Source: Actinocorallia populi
Lineage (GTDB): Bacteria > Actinomycetota > Actinomycetes > Streptosporangiales > Streptosporangiaceae
NCBI RefSeq assembly: GCF_002995495.1
Contig: NZ_PVZV01000003.1
Coordinates: 124,001-188,000, forward strand
DNA: 64,000 nt
Direction of reading: 5' to 3'
The notes beneath the pieces were generated by a model. The model did not search any database, was not told the DNA's origin, and saw nothing but the letters and a program-made list of their open reading frames with translations. Below, one piece after another: positions 10,190 to 20,695 of this stretch. Numbering within the stretch: position 1 is the stretch's first letter; each line of letters starts with the position of its first letter. The position numbers and the translations under genes were made by a program.

Positions 10190-10951
10190 TCACGCCTCGC
10201 GGTAGGCGTCCCGGATGTTGGTCAGGTGGGCGCGCATGGCCTCGCTGGCGCCCTCGCCGTCCCCCGCCGCGATGCGCTCGGTGATCTCCTCGTGCTCCTG
10301 GTCGACCATGGCCCAGAACCCCTCGTGGGTCACCGGGGACGGCTTGAGGAACCGGGTGCGCAGCACGTGGAACACCGGCTCGGTCATCATCGCCAGCAGG
10401 CCGTTGCCGGTCGCCTGCATGATGACGTCGTGGAAGTGCTGGTGCTCGCGGAACTTCATGCTGCGGCCCCGCGACCGCTTCTCCCGCTCCATGGCCGCGT
10501 GCAGCGCGTCGAGGTGGTGCTGCTCGCGCCGCCGGGCGGCCAGGGCGGTGGCCGGCACCTCCAGCAGCTCCCGCGCCTCCAGGATGGCCGCGAGCGGCAG
10601 CGCCGCCGATCCGGACATCAGCCCGATGCTGGCCTCGAGGTAGTCGCTGATCTGGTCGGGGTCGACGCTGGAGACGAAGGTGCCCCCGGTCGTGCCCCGC
10701 GAGGTCTTGACCAACCCCTGCGAGGCCAGGACGCGCAGCGCCTCGCGGACGGTGCTGCGGCTGACCCCGAAGTTCCCCCCGATCTCGCTCTCCGGGGGAA
10801 GGCGGTCGCCGGGCGCCAGCGACCCGTCGAGGATCAGTTCGCGCAGCTGGTCGGCGACCTGCTGGTACGCGGGGCGCAGCCGGGTGACCGGAAGGACGGC
10901 GGGCGCCGTCGAGTCCGGGAGACCCGCACTCTTGCGGTTAGCACTGGACAC
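10190..10951 (-). CDS. GntR-family regulator with FCD (FadR-type) ligand domain
   Basis: 253 residues. The N-terminal winged helix is at about residues 25-95 (QQVADQLRELILDGSLAPGDRLP, then FGVSRSTVREALRVLASQGLVKTSRG). The C-terminal FCD helical bundle follows (ILEARELLEVPATALAARRR, EHQHFHDVIMQATGN, DQEHEEITERIAAGD), with the His/Asp residues that bind a metal and carboxylate ligand in this family. FadR-type members usually repress catabolic operons until an acid or acyl-CoA binds. It reads in the same direction as the catabolic genes, whose upstream regions carry TCTGAT dyads like those upstream of this gene. Confidence 0.92.
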   Translation of the reverse strand: MSSANRKSAGLPDSTAPAVLPVTRLRPAYQQVADQLRELILDGSLAPGDRLPPESEIGGNFGVSRSTVREALRVLASQGLVKTSRGTTGGTFVSSVDPDQISDYLEASIGLMSGSAALPLAAILEARELLEVPATALAARRREQHHLDALHAAMEREKRSRGRSMKFREHQHFHDVIMQATGNGLLAMMTEPVFHVLRTRFLKPSPVTHEGFWAMVDQEHEEITERIAAGDGEGASEAMRAHLTNIRDAYREA

Positions 10952-11317: not shown

Positions 11318-11932
11318 TCAGGGGCGGCCGATCGAGCCGGCCCAGCTCTCGGTGAGGACGTCCAGCATCTCGTCGCGCTCGACGCCCCAGGTCCCGGGCG
11401 TCCAGTGGCGCGCGACGTGGTCGAGCTCGGTGATGACGATGACGCCGCGGAAGCGGCGGGTGCCCGCGGGGAACCTGCCGGCGCGGTCGAGCCCGTCCCG
11501 GACGTCGCCGATGGCCTCGTTCAGCCACTCGTCGAGGAGCGCGCGGATCGCCGGGTCGACGGCCGCGGCCTCGGTGGCGGTCGTGGTGTAGGGGCGGATC
11601 TCGTCCCAGCGCCGCGAGGTGGAGTCGAGCCACGCGCGGATCCGCTCCCGCGAGCCGTCCTCGACCACGGCGACCAGCTCGCGCTCGGTCGAGCCGTGCT
11701 CGGCGGAGGGCACCCGGCCGAGCACGGTGTTGAGCCGCTCCGAGATGAGCGCCTTCATCAGGTCGACTTTGGAGGGGAAGTAGGCGTAGAAGGTCACCCG
11801 CGTCGTCCCCGCCGCCGACGCGATGTCGTCGACCTTCGTCGTCGCGTAGCCCTTCGAGACGAACAGCTCCAGGCCCGCGTCGAGCAGCAGCTTGCGCGTC
11901 ATCTCCTTCTGCGCCTCACGAAGCCTCGCCAT
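11318..11932 (-). CDS. TetR-family transcriptional regulator
   Basis: 204 residues from ATG 11932. The N-terminal HTH is clear: LLLDAGLELFVSKGYATTKV, DDIASAAGTTRVTFYAYFPSK. The C-terminal ligand domain is family-specific and does not name the inducer. It is divergent from the MFS transporter, a classic repressor-transporter arrangement, and the gap between them holds an inverted repeat. A longer N-terminus from 11992 would run through the operator and is unlikely. It probably represses the transporter and, through a shared motif, the phosphotriesterase operon. Confidence 0.92.
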   Translation of the reverse strand: MARLREAQKEMTRKLLLDAGLELFVSKGYATTKVDDIASAAGTTRVTFYAYFPSKVDLMKALISERLNTVLGRVPSAEHGSTERELVAVVEDGSRERIRAWLDSTSRRWDEIRPYTTTATEAAAVDPAIRALLDEWLNEAIGDVRDGLDRAGRFPAGTRRFRGVIVITELDHVARHWTPGTWGVERDEMLDVLTESWAGSIGRP

Positions 11933-12002
11933 GCCGCCAGCATAGGGCACCGAGGACGCGTTCCTCTCGCTCCGACCATTTCGGATACGCACTGCTCAAA
12001 TC

Positions 12003-12060
12003 CTTGACGTCATGTCAAATAATGTGACACCTTGCACAGCCAACTGGTGACCGCGCTCAC
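12003..12060 (+). promoter_or_regulatory. MFS promoter region: shared 29-bp motif and GTGA-N6-TCAC dyad
   Basis: 12003-12031 begins CTTGAC and ends GTGACACC and contains TGTCA-N7-TGACA (12013-12029), a TetR-sized inverted repeat. A second element, GTGA-N6-TCAC, is at 12047-12060. The 29-bp element matches 13830-13858 upstream of the phosphotriesterase operon at 22 of 29 positions by eye. The TTGAC could be a -35 box. Confidence 0.6.
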
Positions 12061-12124
12061 ATCGGGCGGCCGGTCCCGGGCGGCCGGAACGGCCGCCGGC
12101 TCATCGACAAGGAAGAAATCCCCC

Positions 12125-13735
12125 ATGACGCAGACCGCTGCGCACAAGCAGGGCTACACCGCCACGGTGGTCGCCGGCTGCTTCGCCGTCCTCCTCGCGC
12201 AGGTGGCGTACTCGCTGCCCGGCGCGCTCAACGGCACCCTCCAGCAGGAGTTCCAGACCACCGGCGCCGAACTGGCCTGGATCACGGCGGCCTTCGCCAT
12301 CCCCATGGTCGTCTTCGAGCTGACCACCGGCGTGATCGGCGACCTGTTCGGCCGCAGGCGGCTGCTGCAGGCGGGCGCCCTGCTGACCGCCGCCGGCTCG
12401 CTCGTCAGCCACCTCGCCGGGACGGTCGAGGTCCTGTGGGCCGGGCAGGTCGTCGCGGGCCTCGGCGCCGCGATCCTCTACCCGATCTCGCTCGCCATGC
12501 TGGCCGCGGTCAGCCCGTCGCAGGAGGCCCGCTCCAAGGCCATCGCCGTCTGGGCGGGCTTCCTGTCGATCGGTGCGGCGATCTCCCCGCTGATGGGCGG
12601 GTGGCTGGCCGCCGAGGGCGACTGGCGGACGTCGTACCTCGTGGTGATCGCGGCGGCGGTCGTCTCGGTCGTCGTCACCCGGTTCGCCACCGACTCCTCG
12701 GCTCCGCAGGGCCGCAGGCTGGACGTCCCCGGCCAGGTCACGCTGGCCCTCGGCCTGATCGCCGTCCTCTTCGCCGCCACGCAGGGCTCCGAGGCCGGCT
12801 TCGCCCGCCCCGAGATCATCGGCGCCTTCGTCGCGGGCCTGGCGCTCCTGGGCGCCTTCGTCGCCATCGAGCTGCGGACCGACGTCCCGCTGCTGCAGCT
12901 CGGCGTCTTCGCCAACCGCTCCTACGCGGTCGTCGCGATCGCCACGGTGATCGGCATGTTCGCGTTCCTGGCGATCTGCTTCTCGATGAGCATCTGGCTC
13001 GGCGCGATCCAGCACCAGAGCGCCCTGAAGATCGGCGTGCTGTTCCTGTTCGTCCAGGGTCCGGCCTTCGTGCTGGCACCGCTCGTCTCCCACCTGATCC
13101 GGAACTTCTCGCCCCGATGGGTGCTCACCGCCGGTTTCGCCCTCATCGCCGCAAGCGGCGTCCGGTGCTCGACGTTCGACGTCCACGACATGGACTGGAC
13201 GCGGTTCATCGCCCCCATGCTGGCCCTGGGCGTCGGCTTCGCGCTCACCGTCGGCTCGCTCACGGCCGTCGCGATCAACACCGTTCCGCTGCGCCTCGCC
13301 GGCATGGCCAGCGCCACCACCAACCTGCTCCGCGACTTCGGCTTCGCCCTCGGCCCGGTGCTCGTCGCCGCGTTCGCGGTCAGCCGGGCGAACGACGACC
13401 TGGGCGCCGGTGTCGGCAGGGCGATCGGCGAGTCCGGCCTCGAGCCGCCGTACGCCGAGATCGCCGGGGGCATCGCCAGGGAGGGCGGCGCCATGGCGGT
13501 CAACTCGATGCCGGTCGTGCCCGGCGCCGGGGCGGACATGCCGCCGGTGCCGATGCCGGAGAGCCTCCGCGCACTCGCGCTCGAGTCGCTCGGCGGCGCC
13601 TACGGCCTCGCGTTCCTGGTCGTCGGCCTGTGCGCCGCGGCCGCGGCGGCTCTGACGCTGTTCGGGCTCTCCGACTCCGGGCGCGCCGGCGTCGGAGAGC
13701 CCTCGGCCGACGAGGAGCCCGCCCCCACCGGGTGA
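12125..13735 (+). CDS. MFS transporter, DHA2-like (14 TM segments)
   Basis: 536-residue membrane transporter. The first TM segments follow GYTATVVAGCFAVLLAQVAY; motif A is seen as GDLFGRRRLLQAG between TM2 and TM3, and motif C-like glycine/proline residues in GLGAAILYPISLAML and ISPLMGGWLA. The length and C-terminal extra helices (AYGLAFLVVGLCAAAAAAL) fit the proton-driven DHA2 drug/metabolite exporters. ATG 12125 is preferred over an in-frame GTG upstream because GGAAGA precedes it. The neighbouring TetR and the catabolic genes downstream suggest it moves the pathway substrate or product across the membrane. Confidence 0.92.
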   Translation: MTQTAAHKQGYTATVVAGCFAVLLAQVAYSLPGALNGTLQQEFQTTGAELAWITAAFAIPMVVFELTTGVIGDLFGRRRLLQAGALLTAAGSLVSHLAGTVEVLWAGQVVAGLGAAILYPISLAMLAAVSPSQEARSKAIAVWAGFLSIGAAISPLMGGWLAAEGDWRTSYLVVIAAAVVSVVVTRFATDSSAPQGRRLDVPGQVTLALGLIAVLFAATQGSEAGFARPEIIGAFVAGLALLGAFVAIELRTDVPLLQLGVFANRSYAVVAIATVIGMFAFLAICFSMSIWLGAIQHQSALKIGVLFLFVQGPAFVLAPLVSHLIRNFSPRWVLTAGFALIAASGVRCSTFDVHDMDWTRFIAPMLALGVGFALTVGSLTAVAINTVPLRLAGMASATTNLLRDFGFALGPVLVAAFAVSRANDDLGAGVGRAIGESGLEPPYAEIAGGIAREGGAMAVNSMPVVPGAGADMPPVPMPESLRALALESLGGAYGLAFLVVGLCAAAAAALTLFGLSDSGRAGVGEPSADEEPAPTG

Positions 13736-13753
13736 CCCGGGAACCGCCGGGTC

Positions 13754-13781
13754 GGGGCCCACCTCCCGGAGGCCGGGCCCC
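13754..13781 (+). terminator. Hairpin after the MFS gene
   Basis: GGGGCCC and GGGCCCC pair around a 14-base centre that itself contains CCTCC/GGAGG, forming an extended GC-rich hairpin 19 bp after the transporter stop. It separates the transporter transcript from the next operon's promoter. Confidence 0.6.
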
Positions 13782-13829
13782 GTCCTGCTCCGTACACTCG
13801 TGTAGCTTAATTTACGCGAAGGCTACTCG

Positions 13830-13886
13830 CTTGACATGCTGTAAATTCAGGTGACACCATTCACACCGCGGCGTGACCGCAGTCAC
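13830..13886 (+). promoter_or_regulatory. Promoter/operator of the phosphotriesterase operon
   Basis: 13830-13858 is the second copy of the CTTGAC...GTGACACC element found upstream of the MFS gene. A GTGA-N6-TCAC dyad follows at 13873-13886, at practically the same distance as at the MFS promoter (43 versus 44 bp). The duplicated architecture argues for shared control by the TetR at 11318-11932. Confidence 0.6.
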
Positions 13887-13913: not shown

Positions 13914-14906
13914 ATGGGTGCCCAGACCGCCGGGAACACCACCGGCGGCACCGTCAACACCGTCCTCGGCCCCGTTCCCGCGCGGGAGCTGGGGGTCGTC
14001 GCGGTTCACGAGGCCCTGCTGTCGGTGCTTCCCGGAGCGGAGTACGCGTTCGACGTCACCATCGACCGCGCCGAGATCTTCGAGATCCTGGCCGGGAGGC
14101 TGCGGGACTTCCGCGACCACGGCGGCGGGACGGTCGTCGACGCCACCGGCATGTTCCACGGGCGCGACGTGCGGTTGTACGAGGCCCTCTCGCGCACGAC
14201 GGGCGTGCACATCGTCGCCTCGACGGGCCAGGGGCCTGAGGAGATACTCGGCGGCTACTTCCTGACACCGCAGACCAATCCCCCGACGCCGTGGCCGGCC
14301 GAGAAGTTCGCCGACCTCTTCACCAGGGAGGTCACCGAGGGCATGGTGGTCCCCCGCGTCGAGCGGCGGGGCGCCGCGGGCCTCGTGGCCACCGCCGCGA
14401 CCCGCGAGGGCATGACCGCGACCGACGAGAGCCTGTTCCGCGGCGCGGCCCGCGCCGCCCTGGCCACCGACGTCCCGGTGTCCATCCGCTGCGGGAGCGA
14501 CGCCGTGCGCGACCTCGAGGTCGTCCTGGACGAGAGGCTGCCGGCCGGCCGCGTCGCCGTCGGCGGGCTCGACCGCGAGGACGCCGTCGCGGCCGGTGCC
14601 CCGCTCGAGGTCGCCCGCCGCGGCGCCTACGTCGTGCTCGACCACGTGGGCACCGAGGACGGGCGGCACATCGGCGACGCGGAGCGGGCGGACCTGGCGG
14701 CCCGGCTCGTCGATGCCGGTTTCGGCGACCGGATCCTGCTCTCGAGCGACGCGACCGGCGTGGCCAAGGGCCACGCCGGCAACGACGTGCCGTACAGCCA
14801 CGTCCTGTCGGACTTCGTCCCCCTCCTCAAGGCGCGGGGCCTGGCCGACGAGGACGTCCGGCGGATCCTCGTCGACAACCCGCGCGACCTGCTGTCGGTG
14901 CGCTGA
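13914..14906 (+). CDS. Phosphotriesterase-family protein lacking most metal ligands
   Basis: 330 residues, TIM-barrel amidohydrolase of the phosphotriesterase (PTE) family by close similarity to the next gene (TVNTVLGPVPARELG, TVVDATGMFHGRDV, TGVHIVASTG, VDNPRDLLS). In PTEs the binuclear site needs HxH, a carboxylated Lys, two His and an Asp. Here HxH reads HEA, the Lys strand reads GLVATAATR, the TH position reads IRC, the GH position reads VGGLD, and only the final Asp (SSDATG) remains. It is probably a non-catalytic partner or a pseudoenzyme. ATG 13914 follows AGGAG by 8 bases; the GTG just before is less well placed. Confidence 0.82.
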   Translation: MGAQTAGNTTGGTVNTVLGPVPARELGVVAVHEALLSVLPGAEYAFDVTIDRAEIFEILAGRLRDFRDHGGGTVVDATGMFHGRDVRLYEALSRTTGVHIVASTGQGPEEILGGYFLTPQTNPPTPWPAEKFADLFTREVTEGMVVPRVERRGAAGLVATAATREGMTATDESLFRGAARAALATDVPVSIRCGSDAVRDLEVVLDERLPAGRVAVGGLDREDAVAAGAPLEVARRGAYVVLDHVGTEDGRHIGDAERADLAARLVDAGFGDRILLSSDATGVAKGHAGNDVPYSHVLSDFVPLLKARGLADEDVRRILVDNPRDLLSVR

Positions 14907-14957
14907 CCGGCGGCGGCCGGTCCCCGAAACCATGAACGCCTATCTGAGGTGAATGTT

Positions 14958-15917
14958 GTGTCGAGAGTGAACACGGTCCTGGGACCGATCCCGACCGAGG
15001 AGCTGGGTCTCGTGGCCGTCCACGAGCACATCGGCTACGGCATGCCCGGCTCCGAGCTGGACACCAGGTGGTGGAAGACGCCCGAGCAGCGGTACGGCGA
15101 GACCGTCCCGAAGCTGCGCGAGTTCCACGAGCACGGCGGCGGCACGTTCGTCGACGCGACCGGCATCTGCAACGGCCGCGACATCGACTACTACCGGTCG
15201 CTGTCGGAGAAGACCGGCGTGCACATCGTCGCCTCCACCGGCTTCGTCGGCGGCGACACCGCCCTGCCCTTCTTCGAGCGGGCGAGCGTGGAGTACCTCG
15301 CCGAGCACTTCGTCCACGAGATCACCGTCGGCATCGGCGGCAGCGGCGGCAAGGCCGGCATCATCAAGGTCGGCGTCAGCCGCGGCGGCCGGATGACCGA
15401 CCTGGACAAGCGCATCTACCGCGCGGCCGCCCGAGCCGCCAGGGCCACCGGGGCCGGCATCCTGACCCACCTGGCCATCGACGCCGAGAACGCGATCGCG
15501 ATCTTCAACGAGGAGGGCCTCCCCCTCGACCGCGTGCTCTTCGGGCACGTCGACGACGGCGTCAACGCCGACAGGACCCGCGACACCTGGATCGCCGGGC
15601 AGGGCGGCCGGATCGGCTTCGACACCTTCGGCTACGAGACCGAGCTGCCGGACCCGCCGTTCTGGGCGCGTCCGCGCCGGGAGCGCCTCGAGCACTTCCT
15701 GCGGTTCATCGGCGGCGGCGAGGGCCGCATCAGGCAGGTGCTCGCCTCGGCCGACGCCAACTGCAGCCCGCTGGGCTGGCCGGGCGTGAAGGGCCACACC
15801 GTCAACTACATCTTCACCGACCTCATCCCCGACCTGCGCGCCGCCGGTCTCGACGAGGCGGCCATCAAGACGATCTTCGTCGACAACCCCGCCGACTTCC
15901 TTTCGATCGAGAACTGA
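14958..15917 (+). CDS. Phosphotriesterase-family metal-dependent hydrolase
   Basis: 319 residues with the full PTE metal site: VHEH near the N-terminus, Lys in IIKVGVSR, His in LTHLAID, His in LFGHVDD and Asp in ASADAN. Such enzymes hydrolyse phosphotriesters, lactones or similar esters with two divalent metals; in catabolic operons lactonase activity is the common role. GTG 14958 is chosen because GAGGTG lies 6 bases ahead. It lies 51 bp after its degenerate paralogue and probably forms a mixed complex with it, or the pair came from a duplication. Confidence 0.9.
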   Translation: MSRVNTVLGPIPTEELGLVAVHEHIGYGMPGSELDTRWWKTPEQRYGETVPKLREFHEHGGGTFVDATGICNGRDIDYYRSLSEKTGVHIVASTGFVGGDTALPFFERASVEYLAEHFVHEITVGIGGSGGKAGIIKVGVSRGGRMTDLDKRIYRAAARAARATGAGILTHLAIDAENAIAIFNEEGLPLDRVLFGHVDDGVNADRTRDTWIAGQGGRIGFDTFGYETELPDPPFWARPRRERLEHFLRFIGGGEGRIRQVLASADANCSPLGWPGVKGHTVNYIFTDLIPDLRAAGLDEAAIKTIFVDNPADFLSIEN

Positions 15918-15931
15918 CGAGGACCGGAGCC

Positions 15932-17053
15932 ATGCAGCCCTCAGACCTGAAGAACCTGAACATCGCCGTCATCGGCGCGGGATACGGCGGCGCCGCCGCG
16001 GCCAAGGCCCTGAGCCTCCTCGGCGCGACCGTGGACGTCTACGAGCAGGCGAGCCGCATCCGCGAGGTCGGCGCCGGCATCGGCCTGCGGCCGTCCACCA
16101 TGGACCGGTTCCGCCGGTGGGGCGTCATCGACGCGATCACGAAGGTGAGCTCGCCCAGCGACTACTTCGAGATCCTCACCGCCACCGGCGGCCCGATCAT
16201 GCGGGAGCCGTGGCCGGAGATCGAGTCCTTCGGCGAGAGGACCCACCTGATCCACCGCGGCGACTTCATCGAGGCGCTGCTCTCGGTGCTGCCCGAGGGC
16301 ATGGTCCACCTCGGCCACAAGCTCGAGCGGATCGAGGACGGGGGCGAAAGGTCCGTCCTGGCCTTCGCCAACGGCGCCACCGCCGAAGCCGACCTGGTCG
16401 TGGGCGCCGACGGCATCAAGTCCGTGGTCCGCAAGGCCCTGTTCTCCGATCAGGAGCCTGTCTTCTCCGGCGAGCACGCCTACCGCGCCGTCATCGACGT
16501 CGACGACGCCCACGGCATGGTCGCCGACGACAACCTGCGGATGTACATCGGCCGGGGCACGAAGGTCTACCTCCTGCCGCTGCGCCACCGCGGCCAGGTC
16601 TCCTTCGACATCACCGCGCTGTGCCCGGACGGCACCTGGGCGCCGTGCGTCACCAAGGACGACCTGCTCAAGACCGTCGAGGGCTTCGACGAGCGGATCG
16701 TGGACATCACCCGCGGCCTCGACATGGACGCCGTCAACTGCCGTGCCGTCTACGACATCGACCCGGTCGAGGTGTGGCACTCCGGCTCCGTCGTCCTCGT
16801 GGGCGACGCCGCCCACTCGATGCTGCACCACCAGGGGCAGGGCGCGAACTCGGCGATCCTGGACGCCGGCGCGCTCGCCGACGCCCTCGCCGAGGCCGGT
16901 TCGGTCAAGGAGGCGCTGGCGCTCTACCAGGCCGCCCGCAAGCCGGTGACCGACGAGCTGCAGCGGATCTCCCGCCAGGGCTGGACCGAGGACGAGGTCG
17001 ACGACGTCTTCCCGGGCCAGAAGCCCGCCTCCCAGCAGCCGAAGGAGGCCTGA
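15932..17053 (+). CDS. FAD-dependent monooxygenase (salicylate-hydroxylase-like)
   Basis: 373 residues of the class A flavoprotein monooxygenase family. It has the Rossmann FAD motif IAVIGAGYGGAAAAKAL, an acidic strand end (VDVYEQA), the DG motif region (VVGADGIKSVVRKAL) and the FAD-ribityl motif VLVGDAAHSMLHHQGQGAN. It hydroxylates an aromatic or related ring using NAD(P)H and oxygen. The start lies 14 bp after the hydrolase, in a tight operon with hydrolases on both sides, so it probably acts on the same compound. Confidence 0.93.
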   Translation: MQPSDLKNLNIAVIGAGYGGAAAAKALSLLGATVDVYEQASRIREVGAGIGLRPSTMDRFRRWGVIDAITKVSSPSDYFEILTATGGPIMREPWPEIESFGERTHLIHRGDFIEALLSVLPEGMVHLGHKLERIEDGGERSVLAFANGATAEADLVVGADGIKSVVRKALFSDQEPVFSGEHAYRAVIDVDDAHGMVADDNLRMYIGRGTKVYLLPLRHRGQVSFDITALCPDGTWAPCVTKDDLLKTVEGFDERIVDITRGLDMDAVNCRAVYDIDPVEVWHSGSVVLVGDAAHSMLHHQGQGANSAILDAGALADALAEAGSVKEALALYQAARKPVTDELQRISRQGWTEDEVDDVFPGQKPASQQPKEA

Positions 17054-17056
17054 ACC

Positions 17057-17977
17057 ATGCCGCTGCACCCTGAAATCGCCAAGGCCCTCGCCGCCATGCC
17101 CGCGCCGCCGCCCGGACCGCTGAACCCGGAGATGATGCGCGCCGGTGAGGAGTCCCAGGTACCGCCGGTGGCCGACCGCCTGCCGCTGCACTCCGTCGAG
17201 GACCGCACCGCGCGGACCTCCTCCGGCGAGGTCCCGGTGCGGGTCTACACGCCGGTCGAGGCCGACGCGTACGGCCTGCTCGTCTACTTCCACGGCGGGG
17301 CGTTCTTCCTCGGCAGCCTGGAGACGCACGACCACGTCGCACGGTCCCTGGCCCGGGAGACCGGGCTCAAGGTCGTCTCCGTCGGCTACCGGCTGGCGCC
17401 CGAGCACGCCTTCCCCGCCGGCCTCGAGGACTGCTACGCCGCCGTCCGGTGGGCCGCCGCGAACGGCGAGTCCCTGGGCTGGGACGGCACGACGCTGGCC
17501 GTCGCCGGTGACAGCTCCGGCGGCACGTTCGCCGCCGCGGTCGCCGCCATGGCGCACGACGACGGCTTCGACCGGATCACCCACCAGGTGATGTTCTACC
17601 CGTCGCTCGACCTGGACTTCGACGTCGACCGCTACGCCTCGCTGCGGGAGAACGCCGTCGGCCACGGGCTCGAGACGGCGGGGCTGAAGCCGTTCAACGC
17701 CTTCTACCTCGACAGCGGAGCCGACCCGGCGGACCCCCTCGTCTCCCCGGTCAAGCGGGCGGACCTCACCGGGCTGCCGCCCGCGCTGATCATCACCGGC
17801 GAGCTCGACCCGATGCGGGACGAGGGGGAGCTGTACGGCCGGAGGCTGCAGGACGCCGGCGTGGCCGCGACCGTCAGCCGGTACGACGGCGCGGGGCACG
17901 GGTTCGTGCAGCACTTCTCGTGGATCCCCGAGTACCACCGTGCCTTCGAGGAGACCCGCGACTTCCTCGCGCGCTGA
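17057..17977 (+). CDS. Alpha/beta hydrolase, hormone-sensitive-lipase (HSL) type esterase
   Basis: 306 residues with the HSL family oxyanion motif YFHGGAFFLGS, the nucleophile elbow VAGDSSGGTFAAAV, the Asp in GELDPMRDEGE and the His in GAGHGFVQHF, so the catalytic triad is complete. It hydrolyses a carboxylic ester. ATG 17057 comes 4 bases after the preceding stop. It probably opens an ester produced or taken up by the pathway. Confidence 0.93.
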   Translation: MPLHPEIAKALAAMPAPPPGPLNPEMMRAGEESQVPPVADRLPLHSVEDRTARTSSGEVPVRVYTPVEADAYGLLVYFHGGAFFLGSLETHDHVARSLARETGLKVVSVGYRLAPEHAFPAGLEDCYAAVRWAAANGESLGWDGTTLAVAGDSSGGTFAAAVAAMAHDDGFDRITHQVMFYPSLDLDFDVDRYASLRENAVGHGLETAGLKPFNAFYLDSGADPADPLVSPVKRADLTGLPPALIITGELDPMRDEGELYGRRLQDAGVAATVSRYDGAGHGFVQHFSWIPEYHRAFEETRDFLAR

Positions 17978-18011: not shown

Positions 18012-18956
18012 TTGTCCGCATCCGCAGTGAAAATCCATCCCCTCTTCTCGCCGTGGGGCCGGTTCGGTCTCTACAGCTTCTTCATCGACGCGCCGGAGCC
18101 GGCCATCGTCGACACCGGCATCGCCTCCTCGCCCGCCGAGGGCGTGGCTCCCGCGCTGGAGGCCATCGGCCGCCGGATCGAGGACGTGCGCTGGATCCTG
18201 CTGACCCACGGCCACATCGACCACGTCGGCGGGGCCCACGCCCTGTGGGAGCTCACCGGCCGACGCGCGCAGGTCGTGATCCACGAGGCCGACGCGCCAC
18301 TGCTGCGCTCGCGCCGCGCCCATGTGGAGGAGTATCTCGCCAGGCGGGGTCGGTACCTGAATGACCCCGAGGGTGCGGCAAAGGTGACGGCCGCGACGAA
18401 CGCCGTCATCTCCGGCGAGATGGAGCCGACCCTGCTCGTCAAGGGCGGCGAGACTCTCTTCCTCGGCCGTGGCGTTGACGTCTCTGTCCACTCCATTCCC
18501 GGCCACACGCCGGGGTCGGTCGCCTACGTCGTCGACGGGCAGCGCTCGGTGTTCGTCGGCGACGCCGTCCAGGTGCACGGGGCCGCCAACGGCTTTCCCG
18601 GCTTCGAGGACCCGGTCGCCTACCGCGCGAGCCTGGAGTACCTGCGCGACGAAATCCGCCCGCGGCACCTCTACCTCGGCCACCCCTACCGCCGCAGCGA
18701 CGGCACCCCATACGGCGTCGTGCTCGACGCGGGCCAGGCGGCGGAGGCGCTCCGGGAGAGCCTCGACGTCGAGGGCCGGGTCGGCAAGGCGGCCCACGGC
18801 TGCCTGTGCGCGGGGCTCCTGGAGACGGACTCGCCGTACTCCCCCTTCGCCCCGGTGGCACGGGAGGTCGGCTACACCGCCGATCCCGCCCTCGAGCCGT
18901 CGCCGTTCTTCACGTCGATGCACGGCTACCGCACGCACTTCAAGCAGAACCCGTGA
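18012..18956 (+). CDS. Metallo-beta-lactamase-fold hydrolase
   Basis: 314 residues, MBL fold. The metal motif is THGHIDHVGG at about residue 65, then GHTPGSVAYVV, GDAVQVHG and LGHPYRR provide the later His and Asp ligands of a binuclear site. Relatives include lactonases and glyoxalase II-like thioesterases. There is no good ATG; TTG 18012 is chosen because GGAG sits directly upstream, while GTG 18027 lies too far from it. Part of the same operon. Confidence 0.85.
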   Translation: MSASAVKIHPLFSPWGRFGLYSFFIDAPEPAIVDTGIASSPAEGVAPALEAIGRRIEDVRWILLTHGHIDHVGGAHALWELTGRRAQVVIHEADAPLLRSRRAHVEEYLARRGRYLNDPEGAAKVTAATNAVISGEMEPTLLVKGGETLFLGRGVDVSVHSIPGHTPGSVAYVVDGQRSVFVGDAVQVHGAANGFPGFEDPVAYRASLEYLRDEIRPRHLYLGHPYRRSDGTPYGVVLDAGQAAEALRESLDVEGRVGKAAHGCLCAGLLETDSPYSPFAPVAREVGYTADPALEPSPFFTSMHGYRTHFKQNP

Positions 18957-18970
18957 CAGGGGAGGCATCC

Positions 18971-20695
18971 ATGTCCGACTTCCACATCATCCAGGCGGGC
19001 CTGGAAGAGATCGCCGTCCGCAAGGACCTCCGCGTGCCGATGCGCGACGGCGTCACGCTCGCCGCCGACGCCTACCAGGGCACCGACGACAAACCGCGTC
19101 CCGCGCTCGTGGCGCTCAGCCCGTACGGCAAGGAGCTGCAGGCCCTCGCGCTCACGACGCCGCCGCAGCGGCGCCCCTCCCCCATGTGGGACGGCTGCAT
19201 CGAGGCCGGCGACATCGCGCGCGTCGTCAAGGAGGACTATGTCCACGTCATCGGCGACCTGCGCGGCTCCGGTGCCTCCGAGGGCGAGCACATCGGCAAC
19301 TACAACGCCGGCGGCGTCCCCCTCGGGCAGGACGCGTACGACTTCATCGAGTGGGTCGCGGCGCAGCCGTGGTGCGACGGCAACGTCGGCATGATCGGCA
19401 TCTCCTACTTCGGTTCGATGCAGGTGCTGGCCGCGGCCGAGCGGCCGCCGAGCCTCAAGTCGATCTTCGTCAGCGGCGGCCACTACGACTTCTACGAGAC
19501 CACCTACCACGGCGGCGTCATGTGGTTCATGCCGCGCGCCGCCCGCGAGGGCCGCGGCGGCGACTCCGGCTGGGCCTTCACCGACGGGGTGAAGGCCCGC
19601 ATGCTGGAGACGTACTCCCCCTCGGAGATCAAGGAGAAGGTCGCCGAGCGGCTGAAGGACCCGGACGTCGCGGCGTGGCCGAACCTCGTCCACGTGCTGA
19701 ACTACCCGAAGAACCACGAGGCCTGGTTCGACATCGTGATGAACGAGGTCGACGGCGAGTGGTACGAGGAGCGCAACCCGGTCAACCTCGCCAGGAACAT
19801 CGACATCCCGGTCTGGCTCCAGATCGACCAGGGCCGCGGCTGGACGATGGACGGCACCATCGAGGCCTACAACGCGCTGAAGGGTCCGAAGAAGCTCGAC
19901 ATCGGCCCCTACCCGCCGATGCAGTCGCGGCCCTTCATCGAAGAGCACGACAAGATGTTCCGCTGGTACGAGTACTGGATCAAGGGCGTCGACAACGGGA
20001 TCATGGACGAGCCCGCCGTCACCGTCCACGTCGAGGGCTCCCGGGAGACCGTCACCGGCGCGCAGTGGCCGCCGAAGGACGTCGAGTACCGGCCTCTCTA
20101 CCTGCGTCCGCGCCGCAAGCTCTCCTTCGAGCCCGAGCCCATGGGCGCCGAGTACGCCGCCCCCGACGGCTTCTACCAGGCGCCCCTGACGGTGACCGAC
20201 AAGGTGGAGATCCTGAGCTGGAGCACGGCTCCGTTCACCGAGCCGACCGAGATGATCGGCCAGGGCGCCGCGCACCTCTTCGCGGAGATCGACCAGCCCG
20301 ACACGAACTTCATCCTGCGCATGTGGGACGAGGCCCCGAACGGCAGACGGCAGCTCATCACGACCGCCTACCTCAAGGCCTCGCACCGCGAGCTGGACAC
20401 CGAGCGCACCACCGAGGGCGACCCGTTCCACCCGCACACCCGCGCGGTGCCGGTCGAGCCGGGCGTGATCGAGGAGTACGTGCTGCGCGTCTACCCGTTC
20501 GCGGCGACGTTCCTGCCCGGTCACAAGCTGGTCGTAGAGCTGTCCAACGCCGAGCCGCTGGCCGACGAACACAACGCCCTGCTGCCGCCGGACGCGTTCC
20601 ACCTGCCCGTGGGCCGCCCCGTCACGCACAAGATCTACCGCGACGCCGCCCACCCGTCCCGGCTCGTCCTGCCGTTCACGGTGGAGAGGAAGTAG
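18971..20695 (+). CDS. CocE/NonD-family hydrolase (X-Pro dipeptidyl-peptidase S15 type)
   Basis: 574 residues. The N-terminal alpha/beta hydrolase part has the nucleophile elbow GMIGISYFGSMQV and the oxyanion segment LVALSPYGKE, and the C-terminal third is the jelly-roll X-Pro dipeptidyl-peptidase domain (FILRMWDE, RVYPFAATFLPGHKLVVELSNAE). These enzymes cleave esters (cocaine esterase) or amides. Where relatives carry the catalytic His in GPWxH, this protein reads GPYPPMQSRP, so the His may be missing or placed elsewhere. ATG 18971 follows GGAGG. Last gene of the operon. Confidence 0.88.
   Translation: MSDFHIIQAGLEEIAVRKDLRVPMRDGVTLAADAYQGTDDKPRPALVALSPYGKELQALALTTPPQRRPSPMWDGCIEAGDIARVVKEDYVHVIGDLRGSGASEGEHIGNYNAGGVPLGQDAYDFIEWVAAQPWCDGNVGMIGISYFGSMQVLAAAERPPSLKSIFVSGGHYDFYETTYHGGVMWFMPRAAREGRGGDSGWAFTDGVKARMLETYSPSEIKEKVAERLKDPDVAAWPNLVHVLNYPKNHEAWFDIVMNEVDGEWYEERNPVNLARNIDIPVWLQIDQGRGWTMDGTIEAYNALKGPKKLDIGPYPPMQSRPFIEEHDKMFRWYEYWIKGVDNGIMDEPAVTVHVEGSRETVTGAQWPPKDVEYRPLYLRPRRKLSFEPEPMGAEYAAPDGFYQAPLTVTDKVEILSWSTAPFTEPTEMIGQGAAHLFAEIDQPDTNFILRMWDEAPNGRRQLITTAYLKASHRELDTERTTEGDPFHPHTRAVPVEPGVIEEYVLRVYPFAATFLPGHKLVVELSNAEPLADEHNALLPPDAFHLPVGRPVTHKIYRDAAHPSRLVLPFTVERK

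Follow-up and report, generated by a model that had tools for sequence, protein, structure and literature searches.

A rare palindromic element in the promoters of a transporter gene and a hydrolase operon of Actinocorallia populi, a candidate operator of the divergent TetR-family regulator

INTRODUCTION

In Actinocorallia populi, an MFS transporter gene and the hydrolase operon downstream of it are each preceded by a copy of a 29-bp element, and a TetR-family gene diverges from the first copy. An earlier note on this DNA took the TetR protein for the natural ligand of both copies, which would couple transport with metabolism of the same compound. We asked whether the two copies represent a shared operator of this regulator, two promoters that resemble each other, or the site of another factor. 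A literature search, with most subscription papers beyond its reach, found no published account of the locus.

RESULTS

The locus and the rarity of the element

The genes and the two copies of the element are given below by their positions in the window (the whole 64,000-nucleotide stretch of DNA that was analyzed).

11318..11932, minus strand: tetR, TetR-family regulator of 204 aa (Pfam TetR_N), proposed ligand of sites A and B; orthologs lie beside the same operon
12003..12031, plus strand: site A, first 29-bp copy, predicted promoter/operator of the MFS gene
12125..13735, plus strand: MFS transporter, DHA2/EmrB-like (MFS_1, 134.8 bits)
13830..13858, plus strand: site B, second 29-bp copy, predicted promoter/operator of the hydrolase operon
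13914..14906, plus strand: PTE1, phosphotriesterase family (PTE, 125.3 bits), most metal ligands missing in the alignment, probable pseudoenzyme
14949..15917, plus strand: PTE2, phosphotriesterase/lactonase-family hydrolase with metal ligands (PTE, 160.7 bits)
15932..17053, plus strand: FMO, FAD-dependent monooxygenase (FAD_binding_3)
17057..17977, plus strand: ABH, alpha/beta hydrolase (Abhydrolase_3)
18027..18956, plus strand: MBL, metallo-beta-lactamase-fold hydrolase (profile match)
18971..20695, plus strand: CocE/NonD-type hydrolase (TIGR00976, 210.7 bits, over the cut-off)

Site A lies in the 192-bp gap between tetR and the MFS gene, and site B between the MFS gene and PTE1. Checked on the sequence, the two 29-mers are equal in length and run from CTTGAC at the 5' end to GTGACACC at the 3' end, and recomputation gave the same 22/29 identity as the earlier note. 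Past the 29-mer, the ungapped identity drops (31/58 over a longer stretch).

The pattern CTTGAC-N15-GTGACACC had exactly two matches in the 8,251,641-base assembly, sites A and B, and the reversed control pattern had none. Likewise, a relaxed 29-mer pattern with up to three mismatches found only sites A and B in the same 8.25-Mb genome. The motif search that the earlier note had proposed thus confined the pattern to these two places; occurrence at many unrelated promoters, which the note would have counted against its reading, was not observed. The 15-bp core TTGACNNNNYGTHAA was present at four genomic places, sites A and B among them. The other two (C2:670405 and C7:12722) lack TGACAC and a -10 box at the right place, and a wider regulon in the A. 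populi genome appears unlikely. Chance similarity of the two sites was rejected on these genome counts together with the orthologs described below.

Promoter anatomy

Each copy can be divided into a palindromic core and a probable -10 box.

12004..12018, plus strand: site A core TTGAC-GTCAT-GTCAA over the -35 box and spacer, rare and conserved
12028..12033, plus strand: probable site A -10 box CACCTT, 18-bp spacer from TTGACG, assigned from the aligned Streptomyces TACCGT
13831..13845, plus strand: site B core TTGAC-ATGCT-GTAAA
13855..13860, plus strand: probable site B -10 box CACCAT, 18-bp spacer from TTGACA

At both sites, the -35 box and half of the spacer lie within the 15-bp palindrome TTGAC-N5-GTNAA. 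Sites A and B therefore both contain a conserved palindromic candidate operator that overlaps the promoter of a divergent or adjacent target. The Streptomyces sites have a good TANNNT -10 box, TACCGT, at a spacing of 18 bp from the TTGACN hexamer. Since CACCTT and CACCAT align with TACCGT, we read the 29-mer as a -35 box, an operator-bearing spacer, and most of a weak -10 box; transcription would start at approximately 12040 (site A) and 13867 (site B). The 29-bp likeness is partly just promoter hexamers. A promoter-only likeness was rejected, since the right arm GTNAA and the half-sites described below are conserved too.

An inverted repeat (GTAGC...GCTAC, 13801-13827) surrounds the TTTAC upstream of site B, and similar repeats were seen in L033 and L036. 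We also considered a link between terminators and site B. Hairpins are strong before site B in some loci, but several loci keep the site without a hairpin, and we draw no rule from this. Just before the tetR start, a conserved TANNNT (TATGCT on the minus strand, 11939-11944) suggests that the tetR transcript is leaderless or nearly so; its promoter would lie approximately 60 bp away from the operator, and autoregulation can be suggested only tentatively.

Conservation in related genomes

In the family set, a search with TetR (E ≤ 1e-40) retrieved 21 of 341 genomes, from which 19 stretches plus two of G001 were studied. The operon is present in 18 of these loci (L028, L030-L043, and L045-L047), and in 15 of the 18 the MFS gene lies beside tetR. 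The remaining loci, L029, L044, and L048 (the last a 6.2-kb contig), carry a TetR paralog without the operon. Site A is present at all 15 loci with an adjacent MFS gene and deviates from TTGAYN4YGTNAAN6TGNCAC by no more than one mismatch. Upstream of PTE1, TTGAC-N4-YGTAAA was found exactly in 13 of the 18 loci, with one mismatch in three, and with two mismatches in two. The degenerate pattern was scanned in 19 of the 21 TetR genomes, leaving out G099 and G331, both without the operon. It gave 27 matches (reversed control, 0), of which 26 are at the locus and the last is in G258 (C2), approximately 110 bp before a 76%-identical MFS gene outside the cluster. The order set of 345 genomes added only four genomes and no new match. 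Comparison of orthologous promoters, another check named in the earlier note, thus showed that both copies are conserved in relatives.

A scan of named genomes confirmed 117 loci, the best 80 of which (L080-L159, picked by TetR) were used. They show a much broader spread than the order set and belong to Microbispora, Nonomuraea, Nocardia, Micromonospora, Amycolatopsis, Intrasporangium, Streptomyces, Nocardioides, and others. Sixty of the best 80 had a PTE1 start and enough upstream DNA; the core was found upstream of PTE1 exactly in 47 of the 60 and with at most one mismatch in 57, counts that are not independent events because many of the loci are close relatives and several genomes are also in the family set. 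The exceptions were L082 and L092 (two mismatches) and L115 (no core). In a first-order Markov control, the exact core occurred in 0 of 12,000 sequences, and 25 (0.2%) had it with at most one mismatch. In the gap between tetR and the MFS gene, all 19 named loci with an MFS protein at least 70% identical had the core, allowing one mismatch, as did 8 of the 10 with a less similar MFS protein (misses, L106 and L137); the loci counted here are likewise not independent.

Some neighborhoods differ in gene content. In the Streptomyces locus L140 (1086-8122), tetR is flanked on one side by genes for two CoA-transferase subunits and an FAD hydroxylase and on the other by LysR, reductase, and P450 genes, the latter divergent from PTE1. 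These neighbors hint at an aromatic compound. In other genomes, the neighbors include genes for FAD hydroxylases, CoA transferases, a cupin protein, and P450/reductase proteins.

The regulator and its presumed targets

The TetR protein scored 58.1 bits against TetR_N (cut-off, 24) and thus has a TetR-family DNA-binding domain. Its structure model (pLDDT 94) is all-helical and matches TetR-family folds; the PDB matches were distant, with no close solved relative among them. The recognition-helix stretch TTRVTFYA(Y/H)F was identical in all 19 operon-linked TetR proteins aligned. The paralogs of L029, L044, and L048 have the same or nearly the same helix, and no site within five mismatches was found in the 400 bp searched at these loci; the helix alone is therefore no proof of specificity. 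Nor is its conservation in the named-genome scan evidence, because the scan pattern includes part of the helix.

Against TIGR00711, its best family, the MFS protein reached 145.9 bits, under the cut-off of 230.2. The metal ligands of phosphotriesterases are an HxH motif, a carbamylated Lys, two His residues, and an Asp. In all nine PTE1 sequences aligned, HEA replaces HEH, and the Lys and both further His residues are missing, so that PTE1 lacks the catalytic ligand set; PTE2 keeps all ligands in four of four sequences aligned. The two are probably a conserved pseudoenzyme/enzyme pair. The best solved relatives of PTE2 include 4h9v, and from these and the PTE2 family we would guess at a lactone-like inducer.

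Natural rearrangements and regulator exchange

Three loci (L034, L039, and L041) have lost the MFS gene and keep site B, and in them tetR and PTE1 form a directly divergent pair. After the deletion in L034, the TTGAC of site A precedes that of site B by exactly 20 bp, and the ATAC of site A precedes it by exactly 40 bp. In L032, L040, and L046, the gap between the MFS gene and PTE1 is only 31 to 52 nt and site B is reduced, with its -10 part lost; here PTE1 is presumably read from site A.

Five genomes have PTE1 without a TetR at the threshold. In four of them (L074, L075, L076, and L077), a GntR/UTRA gene lies beside PTE1; in the fifth (G061), PTE1 is truncated to its C-terminal half. Upstream of PTE1, three of the four GntR/UTRA loci have no core within two mismatches, and L074 has a one-mismatch core 212 bp upstream, outside the usual position. 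The same hydrolase operon with an unrelated GntR/UTRA regulator in four genomes is a regulator exchange. Regulator and operator thus co-occur, with the off-position core in L074 as the exception. Since a copy of the element moved with the transporter in G258, and since no copy is in place under GntR/UTRA apart from the near-match in L074, the natural rearrangements fit one trans-acting factor.

In G258, the neighbors of the relocated MFS gene with its own operator (L073:6465-8204) include genes for an IclR protein, a cupin-domain protein, and an FAD hydroxylase.

Half-sites phased at 20-bp steps

Single half-sites were found upstream of both cores.

11986..11988, plus strand: TAC half-site upstream of the site A core, at a distance of 20 bp from the -35 box GAC; KAC in all 23 non-Streptomyces A sites, against a background mean of 0.4
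13793..13795, plus strand: TAC half-site upstream of the site B core, at a distance of 40 bp from the -35 box GAC; shared by 14 of 26 non-Streptomyces B sites
13813..13815, plus strand: TAC half-site (within AATTTAC) upstream of the site B core, at a distance of 20 bp from the -35 box GAC; KAC in 22 of 26 non-Streptomyces B sites

We tallied TAC or GAC at each offset from TTGAC. The non-Streptomyces A sites (n = 23) gave 23 at -18, 21 at +2, and 18 at +22; the B sites (n = 26) gave 14 at -38, 22 at -18, 25 at +2, and 14 at +22. The count at +2 is fixed by the TTGAC anchor and thus is not evidence, and conservation at +22 may be partly owed to the -10 region. The background means per offset were 0.4 (A) and 0.8 (B), with maxima of 5 and 8. 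In the Streptomyces B sites (n = 31), only the anchor is kept (1 at -18 and 0 at +22), and the TAC at +24 is the -10 box. In the window, all four half-sites are present at site B (13793, 13813, 13833, and 13853) and three at site A. The central one alone is paired with a matching opposite arm, and the others are therefore half-operators. By analogy, half-sites at exact 20-bp steps beside a palindrome suggest two to four TetR dimers side by side.

The GTGA-N6-TCAC dyad

A dyad follows each copy of the element.

12047..12060, plus strand: dyad after site A, possible Crp-type site
13873..13886, plus strand: dyad after site B, absent at site B in L042 and L043

In agreement with the spacing of about 43 bp in the earlier note, the dyads start 44 bp (A) and 43 bp (B) after the start of the 29-mer, a register difference of one base. 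They lie downstream of the probable transcription starts and are conserved at the majority of A sites and at many B sites. In L042 and L043, the dyad at site B is absent though the core stays, and in L030 the dyad at site A is altered. The dyad is a separate, less universal element outside the minimal element. Its inner 14 bp fit the Crp consensus TGTGA-N6-TCACA, and neither dyad matches all 16 bp. This consensus occurs at 14 genomic places (reversed control, 0), and the genome has 11 Crp-family HTH matches over the cut-off. With 27 genomic occurrences (control, 2), GTGAYCGNNNTCAC is not locus specific. Crp-type input through the dyad is plausible.

DISCUSSION

We consider it very probable that sites A and B are two core promoters with a shared operator, which the divergent TetR protein binds at both places, most likely as a repressor, until a small molecule releases it and the transporter and the operon are co-induced. 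The binding, repression, induction, and cooperativity that we infer would work as follows. TetR, from the gene divergent to site A, would bind sites A and B, and on the -35 box it would shut out RNA polymerase and thereby repress both promoters. A substrate or intermediate of the pathway would release it, and the MFS transporter and the PTE1-PTE2-FMO-ABH-MBL-CocE operon would be induced together. That TetR is the natural ligand of both copies, as the earlier note had it, is supported by the co-occurrence of TetR and operator, by conservation, and by the joint relocation of operator and transporter. The proposed coupling of transport with metabolism through the shared element appears right in its main lines, short of proof.

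It would be surprising if the likeness reflected just two sigma-A promoters, each with TTGAC and a -10 box, that have no regulator in common. The outer ends of the 29-mer do coincide with the -35 and -10 boxes, and the Streptomyces TACCGT at the same spacing shows a real promoter. However, neither the GTNAA arm nor the phased TAC half-sites belong to a promoter as such, yet they are conserved; the core occurs at four places per 8.25 Mb and not at hundreds of promoters; and the element follows TetR and the moved MFS gene. We give equally little credence to a reading in which another factor, for example of the Crp or GntR type, recognizes the element and TetR is a bystander. A 29-bp element at one locus only is unlike the site of a global regulator, the element is off its place where TetR is absent, and in L042 and L043 the core stays where the dyad is missing. 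These points outweigh for us the GTGA-N6-TCAC dyads adjoining both sites, the Crp-family HTH and TGTGAN6TCACA matches in the genome, and the presence of a GntR-FCD gene nearby (10190-10951).

TetR could also be an activator or dual regulator, with the upstream half-sites as activating positions, since these lie approximately 18 to 40 bp upstream of the -35 box and the -10 hexamer (CACNNT) is weak. We regard this as unlikely: the strongest and most conserved palindrome covers the -35 box and spacer, where occlusion would be expected, and divergent TetR proteins with gaps of <200 bp were repressors in the tested cases of PMC3511530.

We tentatively propose, at somewhat less than even confidence, that a cooperative row of TetR dimers is seeded on TTGAC-N5-GTNAA and grows along single half-sites with an exact spacing of 20 bp (two helical turns), of which there are as many as four before the hydrolase operon, with the register under selection. 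The deletion in L034, which fused two operators with the phase unbroken, suggests such selection. If this holds, the locus would contain a phased half-operator array whose length sets strength or threshold for the transporter versus the enzymes, and the 20-bp phasing offers a concrete hypothesis for how some TetR proteins assemble on DNA.

The locus appears to be a small portable regulon, conserved over a range that extends from Streptosporangiaceae to Nocardia, Micromonospora, Amycolatopsis, and Streptomyces. It links a transporter with an uncharacterized hydrolase/monooxygenase pathway including a conserved probable pseudo-phosphotriesterase. The shortness and rarity of the operator make the regulon, and perhaps the compound, directly testable.

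Among the loci compared here, the GntR/UTRA regulators of L074 to L077, of the HutC type, fill the same place beside PTE1. They belong to a protein family unrelated to TetR, and at their loci the TetR element is missing from its usual place in the promoter. Among known systems, the nearest logic is probably that of QsdR with the lactonase QsdA, a member of the phosphotriesterase family. In the part of PMC6262395 available, QsdR of Rhodococcus erythropolis is described as the repressor of the qsd operon, released by a lactone ring; like the A. populi locus, it combines an actinobacterial TetR-family gene with a divergent operon that starts with a lactonase gene, qsdA. In contrast, the A. populi operator is on two separate promoters, and the same part of PMC6262395 mentions no MFS gene for qsd. 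The QsdR structure 4ZA6 was not among the 60 listed of 107 PDB sequence relatives of TetR.

EthR of Mycobacterium tuberculosis is among the best fold matches to the TetR model (TM, approximately 0.68); the fold matches are 17 to 20% identical. EthR "octamerizes cooperatively on its operator," as the title of a work cited in PMC4482099 puts it, and it is by analogy with this multi-dimer operator that we envisage a row of dimers in A. populi. Unlike the EthR motif, which the available text of PMC4482099 describes as large and not a classical palindrome, the A. populi operator is centered on a clear 15-bp palindrome. For divergent TetR/MFS pairs of streptomycetes, in which the TetR protein is the predicted repressor of the MFS gene, Ahn et al. 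2012 (PMC3511530) formulated a "200 bp rule," by which gaps of <200 bp went with repression of the neighbor in the tested cases. The 192-bp gap between tetR and the MFS gene falls inside this rule, but unlike in the streptomycete pairs as described there, the operator is repeated downstream at a metabolic operon. As a local TetR regulon, the A. populi locus is ordinary in kind; its second operator and the 20-bp phasing are uncommon.
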